In this document: positions 14,934 through 18,219 of the stretch, piece by piece
How positions within the stretch are numbered: position 1 is the first letter of the stretch
How the letters are laid out: each line of letters opens with the position of its first letter
NCBI GenBank assembly: GCA_013286485.1
Contig: JABDFN010000011.1
Coordinates: 1 to 35,121, forward strand
Direction: 5' to 3'
From: Bacteroidota bacterium
Lineage (GTDB): Bacteria; Bacteroidota; Bacteroidia; Chitinophagales; Chitinophagaceae
DNA: 35,121 nt
Translations under genes and position numbers: made by a program
Notes under the pieces: model-generated
Told to the model about the DNA's origin: nothing
The model's database searches: none
The model's input: the letters and a program-made list of their open reading frames with translations, nothing else

Positions 14934-16049
14934 TTAATGAGCTGCAAAAATTTCATGTAATGCCCGCTCAACTTCTTGCTTTATAACAGGGTAGCTTTCT
15001 TTCATTCCCTTAACATGAATGTCAAAATGCTCGATGAGTGATTTGTTCATATTGATAATGATGGAACCACCACCTCGAGGGCCTGCATACCTGACATGCA
15101 ACAAATGATCAGCTACCGCATCATCCTCTCGTTTCTTCCTTTCTTCTTTGCTGACAGGTGTTGCGCTAATTGTTAAAGGTGCATAATAGAAACTTTTTTG
15201 ACCGGCATATCGATGTTCGTTTATAGGCACATTGCTGATTGGAATTTGATGATCTTGTCCAATAATATTATCAGAACCAAAGTCTGCATGCTTTTTTGCA
15301 TTTTCAACACCTGTCAAAACCTCTTGTTGCGATGACACATATTCATATGGTTCTCCTGTTGAAGGCTTTGCAATTTCTTTTTTTCCTGCAAAGTGCGAAT
15401 ATAATGCAGCCCCACCCGTTAGTACAGCGCCGGCTATGAGAGGAAACAGACCTACGCCGGTTTCAGATGTAGCAATGCCAACCCCAATTAATTCTTCACC
15501 AAATGTTGACACTAATGATAGAATGCCACTTTCTTCCATAATAGCAAGACCGGAATCCACCACATAATTTGTTGCCTCTGTTATTACATTTTTCCCGAAG
15601 ATTTTTACGAGCCTTTTTGCCAAATTGCCTCCTTTATAATCAAATGCAAAGTCTGTAACAGTATTCAAACCAACTTTTATAGCTGAATTCAAGAGATCAT
15701 TTCCCGGGTTATTTTGCCCAGGTTGCTGAGAAGTAGCTACATATGGGATGTATGGCAAGCCGGAAGGATATGGTATACTCACCTGCAAGCTTTGAAGCTT
15801 GTTTGATAATTCATCAACATGCTTTTCTGCATTTATTATTTCAGAAATGTCGAGGTGAACATGATAGGCGTTTGACAATATGGAAGAATTGTTAACCTCA
15901 TCCTCTGCGTGGGTAGCAATATTTAAAAGCAGATCACATTCGTTTTGCATTAACTCATTGAATGTTTGCAAAGTTTGCTCTATAGAAGTAATTAATTCCA
16001 TCCAGGAATCTTTGCTTACCAGGTCAATATATGTTGCTATCTCTTCCAC
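14934..16049 (-). CDS. Putative tape measure protein, unusually short
   Basis: The position between tail chaperone and hub-region genes identifies this 371-residue product as the tape measure candidate. It has long helical stretches (SWMELITSIEQTLQTFNELMQNE, INAEKHVDELSNKLQSLQV) and one hydrophobic glycine-rich segment around residues 190-215 (ATSETGVGLFPLIAGAVLTG), as tape measures usually have for membrane passage. The C-terminal third is less typical, with GGGSIIINMNKSLIEHFDIHVKG. The start is a GTG with AGAAAG just before it; ATG 16001 is a possible alternative. If the usual 0.15 nm per residue holds, the tail would be about 55 nm or shorter. Confidence 0.6.
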   Translation of the reverse strand: MEEIATYIDLVSKDSWMELITSIEQTLQTFNELMQNECDLLLNIATHAEDEVNNSSILSNAYHVHLDISEIINAEKHVDELSNKLQSLQVSIPYPSGLPYIPYVATSQQPGQNNPGNDLLNSAIKVGLNTVTDFAFDYKGGNLAKRLVKIFGKNVITEATNYVVDSGLAIMEESGILSLVSTFGEELIGVGIATSETGVGLFPLIAGAVLTGGAALYSHFAGKKEIAKPSTGEPYEYVSSQQEVLTGVENAKKHADFGSDNIIGQDHQIPISNVPINEHRYAGQKSFYYAPLTISATPVSKEERKKREDDAVADHLLHVRYAGPRGGGSIIINMNKSLIEHFDIHVKGMKESYPVIKQEVERALHEIFAAH

Positions 16050-16054
16050 CTTTC

Positions 16055-16213
16055 TTATTTTGTTTGTTGTTTGTGTATGTATGCCAGGTGCGCTAGTTTT
16101 TGCGCAAATGCTTTGTCTGAAAGTTTATTGTGCTCTAATCCCGGCAGGTAATACTCTAAAATGGTTTCCAGGTATCCGAGGAAGTCGTGCTCCGGGCCTC
16201 CACACGCTTCCTC
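16055..16213 (-). CDS. Shifted-frame extension of the tail assembly chaperone (gpGT-like)
   Basis: This stretch is too short for the ORF track. In the -1 frame relative to the chaperone, 52 codons stay open after the chaperone stop and read GGPEHDFLGYLETILEYYLP then LSDKAFAQKLAHLAYIHKQQ, clearly protein-like. No ATG, GTG or TTG begins it near its 5' end, so the natural reading is a ribosomal frameshift producing a longer chaperone, as lambda gpG-gpGT and many contractile phages do. An earlier TAA in that frame (about 16229-16231) confines the shift to the last few codons before the chaperone stop. No canonical slippery heptamer is visible there. Confidence 0.6.
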   Translation of the reverse strand, partial: EEACGGPEHDFLGYLETILEYYLPGLEHNKLSDKAFAQKLAHLAYIHKQQTK

Positions 16214-16527
16214 TATAAGTTTACCAGTTTAGCTTTTTTGCCATCCATTTTACTGCGTATCTGCTGCACTAACCCGAAGAATTTCTGATCATCATTTATA
16301 ACTTCTTCGCTGCCACCTAAAAAGGTAAGTCTTGCCAGCTCTTCATACATATCTAATGCTAAGCCTGATGATGCTTTACTGAGGGCGCAATTCATTTCAT
16401 TCCGGTTAGGGTTTTTAAAATAGCCTACGTGCCCGTCTACCTCTATGGCATAGATACCTTGTTTGTATTGCTGTTTCCAGGTATTTACCTGTTCGTCAGT
16501 TTGCTGTCCTGTTAATTGCTGTTCCAT
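16213..16527 (-). CDS. Tail assembly chaperone (gpG/gp41-like)
   Basis: A 104-residue acidic-to-neutral helical protein located between the tube and tape-measure genes, the invariant site of tail assembly chaperones. These bind the tape measure and recruit tube subunits, and are absent from the finished virion. VNTWKQQYKQGIYAIEVDGHVGYFKNPNRNEMNCALSKA is followed by helices ending in KKAKLVNL. Its start overlaps the tube stop by one base (TAATG). The 3' end carries the frameshift extension annotated separately. Identification rests on position, size and that extension. Confidence 0.68.
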   Translation of the reverse strand: MEQQLTGQQTDEQVNTWKQQYKQGIYAIEVDGHVGYFKNPNRNEMNCALSKASSGLALDMYEELARLTFLGGSEEVINDDQKFFGLVQQIRSKMDGKKAKLVNL

Positions 16528-16958
16528 TATATAGTTACTATGGGGTTAAGTCTTAAGAAGATAATCGGGAGTTTTATTTCCATATGTTTGGCGCCTTGCT
16601 CCCAGCCTTGTTCAAATTCTTTTACCTGCACGCCAACCAGCAAGTCAGTTTTTAAAGCGCGGTTTGATTTTGCTTTATAGGTTATTACTATGTCAAACTC
16701 CAGGTCCAGCACATCCTGCCCAAGGGCTGCCACAGCTGCTGTGTTTATATCATCGAGTGCACCTTTTAAAAGGCTTATTTCACCTTCGTAAGAGCGGTTG
16801 CCACTTTGTATAGCTACCGGTTGGTCGCCTGCTGCGTACAGCTCTTCCTTATCTTTTTTTGCTTTGTATCTGATTCCGCGAATTTTTGTTACCGGCGCAC
16901 CTGCTATCAGCACCTGCATGTCTGCCCATTCGCATTCTTTACTATTGAAAAAGTCCAT
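16527..16958 (-). CDS. Tail tube protein
   Basis: The 143-residue product follows the sheath gene and has the beta-barrel character of tail tube (gp19/FII-like) proteins: DMQVLIAGAPVTKIRGIRYKAKKDKEELY, then QPVAIQSGNRSYEGEISLLKGALDDI. The GNRSYEGEISL segment, a strand-turn-strand followed by a helix, is a common feature of tube subunits in this lineage. The C-terminal QGAKHMEIKLPIIFLRL supplies the last strands. It would polymerise into the inner tube through which DNA passes. The start is separated from the sheath stop by a 94-base spacer filled with palindromic repeats. Confidence 0.75.
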   Translation of the reverse strand: MDFFNSKECEWADMQVLIAGAPVTKIRGIRYKAKKDKEELYAAGDQPVAIQSGNRSYEGEISLLKGALDDINTAAVAALGQDVLDLEFDIVITYKAKSNRALKTDLLVGVQVKEFEQGWEQGAKHMEIKLPIIFLRLNPIVTI

Positions 16959-17052: not shown

Positions 17053-18219
17053 TTATGCTGCAGGGTCGCTGAATCCAAGTGTTATACTGATGGTGCTGCT
17101 ATAGCCAACAGGCACAATTTTCAGTACTACATTTACTATATTGGTAGCCAGTACATTCTGCGAGGGGTCTACATAACAAAGCACATTGCTTATTTCGTTA
17201 TTGGCTTTCATGATGAGGCTTAGCTGGTTGATAATTTGCTGCTCCATGAATTTGCAATAGCCTGCATCCAGCGTGCCATCTGCATTAACAAGCACCTCGT
17301 TATCTATTTCTTCCACATAAGTTGCGTAGGCAATTATCTGTGCTTTATCTATTACCCTGCCGCGGGCTACAAAGCAATAATCATCTGTAGTAGCGGTGCA
17401 GGTTGGGTCGCCGGTAAAATAATAACCCGTTTTATTGGCAAATGTGCGCACAGATATATACCCACGATCGTGAATGGTAGATGTTGTAGTATACTGAGCT
17501 GCATCTGTAGCAACAATATATGCCGCAGGCGTGCTGAGCGGACCCGTTTTTACACGGCTTACTTTTCTTTGCACCGGAATAGCAGAAAGCCTGCCTAATA
17601 GTAAACCAATAGCCGCACGGTTAGTAGACGCAACTGTATCGCCTATTAATATGGCCACACGATTTTGGCTTGCAGTTGTTTGATCAGTAAGTGCGGTGGC
17701 TGTGCCACTATAATTTTCACCTGCAATAATTGCTCTAAAAGGCCATTGCTTGTTGAAATATGTGGTAGCCAGTGTTTGCATATTGGTTTTGGCAGTAGCT
17801 ACTTTTGAATTGATGCCGTTTGTAATGGTTGGTGTATAAGCGCCCGGGTCGTCCATGATGCCCAGTATGCGTATTGCACCGGCTGCGAAATCGAGCAGCT
17901 TAGTGGCGCCATTAGCATTGGTTTGATCTGCCATTGCGTCTACTGTTACTGTATTGGCAGTTAATAACAAATACAGTGTAGCGCCATTTCCGGCTTCGTT
18001 GAAAAATTCTGTTATCTCTTTGTAAGCAATGGGGTTATTTGTTTGCGTTAATCCTTTGCTTTGCGCATCGCTCAGGCTGATAACCGTAAGTGGTGTTCCC
18101 TGCACAATGGTTCCTTCGCTTACACCTACCAGCACCATACCGCAAACACCATCTGCAGTTTGTAGTGTTTGCCCCAGTGTACCGTTGGCGAGTGTGATAT
18201 TTACATTTGGTAATGACAT
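17053..18219 (-). CDS. Contractile tail sheath protein (DUF2586-like)
   Basis: At 388 residues this is a compact sheath. It begins LPNVNITLANGTLGQTLQTADGVCGMVLVGVSEG and continues with TVISLSDAQSKGLTQTNNP...KEITEFFNEAGNGATLYLLL, the pattern of Bacteroidota DUF2586 sheath proteins. Late segments TGPLSTPAAYIVATDAAQYTTTSTIHDRGYISVRTF and CYVDPSQNVLATNIVNVVLKIVPVGYSSTISITLGF correspond to the conserved C-terminal sheath domain used for the inter-ring mesh. Presence of a sheath defines the particle as contractile. It is the first tail gene after the lysis genes. Confidence 0.8.
   Translation of the reverse strand: MSLPNVNITLANGTLGQTLQTADGVCGMVLVGVSEGTIVQGTPLTVISLSDAQSKGLTQTNNPIAYKEITEFFNEAGNGATLYLLLTANTVTVDAMADQTNANGATKLLDFAAGAIRILGIMDDPGAYTPTITNGINSKVATAKTNMQTLATTYFNKQWPFRAIIAGENYSGTATALTDQTTASQNRVAILIGDTVASTNRAAIGLLLGRLSAIPVQRKVSRVKTGPLSTPAAYIVATDAAQYTTTSTIHDRGYISVRTFANKTGYYFTGDPTCTATTDDYCFVARGRVIDKAQIIAYATYVEEIDNEVLVNADGTLDAGYCKFMEQQIINQLSLIMKANNEISNVLCYVDPSQNVLATNIVNVVLKIVPVGYSSTISITLGFSDPAA

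Follow-up and report, generated by a model that had tools for sequence, protein, structure and literature searches.

The window analysed here, a stretch of 35,121 nucleotides, is one contig (G000:C11) of a Bacteroidota genome that is 60% complete. It carries prophage tail genes, all on the minus strand, in the order sheath, tube, ORF1, an open −1 frame and a 371-aa ORF. The tail sheath gene (DUF2586; 17053–18219, minus strand) encodes 388 aa and matches phrog_907 (2.4e-40) and PF10758 (1.9e-55), and the 143-aa tail tube protein (16527–16958, minus strand) matches the tail protein family phrog_4579 (3e-10). The top-scoring family for the tube protein, at 3.1e-26 (first 165 of 501 positions), is phrog_9206. 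Its label, 'major head protein', makes it look like a family that is fused or wrongly named, and the gene in the tube position of Bacteroides phage BS-TP1 is similarly labelled 'portal protein'. ORF1 (16213–16527, minus strand), the putative G-like tail assembly chaperone, encodes 104 aa ending in LVNL* and matches phrog_19076 (unknown function; 1.9e-14). Beyond it lies the 371-aa ORF (14934–16049, minus strand), a presumed tape measure protein by position, given that a tape measure is annotated beside the homologue gp36 in BS-TP1. A family search with this ORF gave no match, and a detectable homologue occurs in only 3 of 68 loci of the survey described below, the window's own counted, while tube and chaperone are kept. 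The other ORFs in this slot of the relatives vary in length, and the slot at 14934–16049 may be occupied by short tape measures that vary among loci, or by some other product.

ORF1, read from 16527 to 16213, ends with the codons AAA CTG GTA AAC TTA TAG. In the −1 frame a TAA at 16231–16229 bars any upstream shift, including one at the A6 run at 16239–16234, so that a shift is confined to CTG GTA AAC TTA TAG, between this TAA and the 0-frame TAG; on both points the original prediction was right. After the TAA the −1 frame stays open until a second TAA at 16057–16055, and the open frame (16055–16228, minus strand) reads TGKLIEEACGGPEHDFLGYLETILEYYLPGLEHNKLSDKAFAQKLAHLAYIHKQQTK*, with no ATG, GTG or TTG ahead of its conserved part. 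Openness by itself is not significant, given that at least 52 open −1 codons follow the stop in 13 of the 64 window ORFs of ≥100 codons. The extension is therefore judged real because it is conserved among homologues, not because the frame is long.

Conservation of the −1 frame

Homologues were collected from 299 genomes of the family, GTDB contigs, IMG/VR and a DNA pattern scan (CTGGTAAACTTATAR), which pooled gave 97 distinct loci with a relative of ORF1. The closest named relatives are Flavipsychrobacter, Taibaiella and other Chitinophagaceae or Bacteroidetes records. Conservation was counted in a set of 68 loci, identified through protein similarity and thinned to <90% pairwise identity near the site; loci fetched by the CTGGTAAACTTATAR pattern were excluded from these counts because they had been selected for the site.

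A homologous extension is present in 94 of the 97 loci, each time in the −1 frame and never in another, and two of the three loci that lack it are truncated by the end of the contig or a stretch of N. Substitutions in the extension fall on −1-frame codon positions 1/2/3 in proportions of 27/15/57%, compared with 24/12/64% for ORF1 in its own frame; the extension is thus biased by codon position as a genuine reading frame would be. The proposal that a protein-like −1 frame continues past the ORF1 stop without a start codon of its own is borne out, and the codon-level conservation it called for is present; neither outcome that would have spoken against it was found, namely a second frame that is random or interrupted by a stop in the homologues, or an independent start shared by them. 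ATG, GTG and TTG are missing from the frame in 51 of the 68 loci and the others have none in common near the site. A +1 shift was rejected, as the +1 frame is soon closed in nearly all relatives. Pfam and NCBIfam searches with ORF1 and with the extension returned nothing significant.

The slip site and the 3′ hairpin

The candidate −1 slip heptamer is G_GTA_AAC (16219–16225, minus strand), with GTA re-pairing to GGT in the P site and AAC to AAA in the A site. It is unchanged in 56 of the 68 non-redundant loci, none of them chosen for the site. The surrounding end of ORF1, CTGGTAAACTTATAG (16213–16227, minus strand), has its first 14 bases unchanged in 53/68 of these loci, where CTGGTAAACTTATA is followed by G or A (44 TAG, 9 TAA). 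This constraint acts on nucleotides: in the 58 loci with the site, the commonest codon accounts for 98, 100, 100 and 97% at L, V, N and L, compared with a mean of 55% and a maximum of 80% for the commonest synonym at 39 other conserved ORF1 codons. In the slip model neither GGT nor AAA is decoded as a −1 codon, so the constraint on the third bases in CTG and GTA would serve the slip rather than −1 coding.

By the canonical X_XXY_YYZ rule G_GTA_AAC fails at XXX, which is GGT. The original prediction was therefore literally correct that no such heptamer exists here, but G_GTA_AAC is one base from the textbook G_GGA_AAC. Exactly this textbook form (CTG GGA AAC) occurs once, in locus L018. On a protein tree, 4 label changes suffice for the G_GTA_AAC loci, compared with 13.0 for shuffled labels, and L018 is nested among the G_GTA_AAC lineages, although tree details are unsure because of long branches. 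Close variants include TTG GTA AAC, GTA AAT, GTA AAG and TTG ahead of the stop. In more distant relatives the same two codons carry A_AAA_AAG (L228), T_TTA_AAA (L028), G_GAA_AAG (L019, L227) or T_TCA_AAG (L025), and G_GTA_AAG also replaces the heptamer at this place; in L024, T_TTA_AAA sits one codon upstream. The textbook heptamers that relatives such as L018, L028 and L228 have at the same spot pin the putative slip to G_GTA_AAC. Four other distant relatives (L021, L022, L023 and L026) have G_GGG_GAR instead of G_GTA_AAC, its GGG lying 18 nt upstream of the stop of ORF1, and L224 and a few distant relatives show no obvious heptamer at that place. An RF2-like CTT TAG site in distant relatives was considered and rejected, given that the +1 frame is short and the upstream GGGGGAR accounts for the −1 frame.

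Downstream of the heptamer, a 5-nt spacer (TTATA, 16214–16218, minus strand) separates the A-site codon from a hairpin at 16178–16213 (minus strand) with outer stem GAGGAAG/CTTCCTC and a minimum free energy of −18.9 kcal/mol, a putative stimulator. Across loci the hairpin starts 5–7 nt past AAC, and its structure and spacing match the structured RNA, about 5–9 nt past the A-site codon, that is typical of −1 programmed ribosomal frameshifting with a 3′ stimulator. When synonymous codons were drawn with the −1 protein kept, the stretch from −3 to +47 was more stable than its shuffles in 69 loci, some of them pattern-selected, with a mean z of −1.85, which is no formal probability because the loci are related; three later stretches gave +0.3 to +0.5. 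In 40 sequences that share one register, 94.4% of cells are paired and double-sided changes occur in 7 of 9 pairs, although register and rows were picked by fit from the same sequences, which tends to raise the percentage paired and, to a lesser degree, the double changes. The covariation score of these 40 sequences is 0.375, compared with 0.185 when shuffled (0 of 500) and ≤0.148 when slid. A sister group of 11 loci, including the window, has the hairpin register off by one base. Five loci (L225, L061, L093, L100 and L143; all except L225 found by pattern) keep CTGGTAAACTTATAR and lack a hairpin in the usual register. A pseudoknot between the hairpin loop and CCGGG of the LPG codons, considered by eye, was set aside, as it is not kept in L034.

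Comparison among relatives thus establishes, at the level of sequence, −1 coding, nucleotide-level constraint on the heptamer and a conserved hairpin. With homologues, a near-textbook site and a putative stimulator, the proposed atypical −1 recoding site stands, but not as a shift without a recognisable site; its atypicality is milder than first described, given the aligned textbook heptamers of relatives and the covarying hairpin, which had been missed.

Frameshifting and its alternatives

We consider it highly probable that a contractile-tail assembly chaperone has a long form here, produced by −1 programmed ribosomal frameshifting on G_GTA_AAC. Most ribosomes would read ORF1 through to TAG and release the 104-aa protein. 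A minority, delayed by the hairpin that begins 5 nt further on, would slip back by one base on G_GTA_AAC, tRNA-Val moving from GTA to GGT and tRNA-Asn from AAC to AAA. Reading would then continue as CTT ATA GAG..., yielding a 157-aa fusion (...AKLVN-LIEEACGG...) that ends in the extension LIEEACGGPEHD...HKQQTK (16055–16219, minus strand), the frame conserved in relatives. Counted from CTT at 16219 the effective extension is 54 aa long, not the 52 codons originally given. We infer slippage itself, its rate and the joint slip of both tRNAs, and likewise that the long form would couple the tape measure to the tube protein. In E. coli reporters the tetramers that were clearly prone to shifting did not include A_AAC, and G_GGA_AAC was rated as low in efficiency (PMC4066793), so the shift rate may be low; this would fit a GT form that is scarce relative to G.

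The interval between the −1 TAA and the 0-frame TAG spans only five codons, and a real −1 shift could also take place at another of them, at CTG/GTA or at AAC/TTA by the stop. G_GTA_AAC would then be kept only through dual coding (LVNL, GKLI), which could freeze the same bases. This is very improbable: the codon ahead of CTG varies freely, −1 re-pairing is poor for CTG and TTA, the textbook heptamers of homologues fall exactly on the GTA AAC codons, and the hairpin is spaced as expected for an A-site AAC. Slippage during transcription (RNA polymerase stuttering) instead of translation might be suspected in the window from the A6 run 8 nt upstream of the heptamer. However, the −1 TAA follows that run, relatives have AAG AAA, AAG CGG or GCG AGG in its place, the longest run within CTGGTAAACTTATA is three, and a hairpin 5–7 nt downstream suits ribosomes, all of which leaves transcriptional slippage with next to no probability.

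The −1 ORF could instead be a separate gene, translated by termination–reinitiation or from a non-standard start at the ATA (16216–16214) that overlaps the TAG. This −1-frame ATA is nearly invariant and overlaps the stop in the manner of ATGA start–stop overlaps, yet a TGA stop would supply a true ATG, at the cost of one Ile to Met change in the −1 product, and the stop is TAG or TAA in every locus with the CTGGTAAACTTATA site (79/79). Loci with TTG TAR have GTA there, which provides no start, and the general scarcity of ATG, GTG and TTG in the frame also speaks against reinitiation. It further leaves unexplained why the third bases of CTG, GTA and AAC are so constrained and why relatives have textbook heptamers at the same place, and we regard a separate gene as very improbable.

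Relation to known tail-chaperone frameshifts

We infer the chaperone identity of ORF1 from position and weak fold matches. A tube gene match lies directly upstream of ORF1 in 65 of 68 relatives, and in BS-TP1 the homologue gp36 lies between the sheath/tube genes and the annotated tape measure, with an unannotated gap that contains a −1 frame between gp36 and the tape measure. The AlphaFold model of ORF1 (pLDDT 88) has no match in the PDB at E ≤ 0.001; its weak fold matches are 3fgx (E 0.039, TM 0.56–0.60) and 5ir0, and the tail assembly chaperone of Bacillus phage Gemini is likewise a weak match (E 0.012, TM 0.50–0.54). Tube synteny, the BS-TP1 gene order and these fold matches together point to a G/GT-type function. 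In the BS-TP1 record (L229:4276-4564), which annotates gp36 only, the −1 frame is open from 91 nt before the gp36 stop to 167 nt after it; a textbook A_AAT_TTA lies near the gp36 end, and a PG..DDLDDEEFA motif resembles the extension in the window.

Tail-chaperone frameshifts are widespread in long-tailed dsDNA phages (Xu, Hendrix and Duda 2004, as summarised in PMC5009743). As in lambda gpG/gpGT, two overlapping ORFs adjoin the tube gene and precede the tape measure, with a −1 shift near the end of ORF1 and a short C-terminal extension; unlike lambda, no sequence kinship is detectable (no Pfam match) and the heptamer here is off-rule. The conserved 3′ hairpin also contrasts with certain tailed phages, whose shifts are described without stimulatory signals (PMC5009743). 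Off-rule XXX triplets are documented in RNA viruses, with GGU in EMCV, GUU in equine arteritis virus and GGA in insect flaviviruses (PMC3542737), and G_GUA_AAC itself was proposed for Circulifer tenellus virus 1 (CiTV1), whose relative SpFV1 has G_GGA_AAC (PMC3832450). The site described here shares the GGU P-site mismatch with EMCV, and with CiTV1 both the identical heptamer and a textbook relative. However, those viruses use eukaryotic ribosomes and the CiTV1 site is a prediction, whereas here the site lies in a bacterial prophage gene with many homologues.

Closer in setting are the tail-chaperone shifts without X_XXY_YYZ that PRFect lists for actinobacterial phages, where the motifs named in the main text include fivetwo (GGGGGAA) and twoonefour (PMC10885494). 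The GGGGGAR of L021, L022, L023 and L026 is of the fivetwo kind, whereas G_GTA_AAC matches none of the motifs named in that main text, the name twoonefour suggesting four identical bases at the end. The PRFect sites were derived from annotation, whereas the site here was put through tests on homologues and on the hairpin. In the open-licence literature we found no description of G_GUA_AAC in a phage.

Taken as recoding of the lambda G/GT type, the locus very probably combines a conserved off-rule slip site with a hairpin, as judged from sequence comparison. More tentatively, and as a possibility we hold at rather less than even confidence, G_GUA_AAC may be selected over the textbook G_GGA_AAC (56 loci to 1). 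Its P-site mismatch would then set the G to GT ratio, or modification of host tRNA-Val or tRNA-Asn would make G_GUA_AAC efficient, and the conserved hairpin would help to tune the tail-chaperone shift.

The site would represent a natural, deeply conserved bacterial −1 frameshift with a mismatched P-site codon, kept in dozens of related prophages, and it gives phrog_19076 a likely function. Tail-chaperone recoding in Bacteroidota seems little described in the literature searched, and a motif-based search restricted to X_XXY_YYZ would overlook the long product in prophages of this phylum. The heptamers that occur naturally at one place (A_AAA_AAG, T_TTA_AAA, G_GAA_AAG, G_GTA_AAG, G_GTA_AAC and G_GGA_AAC) make it possible to ask how a slip site can change without loss of its product.
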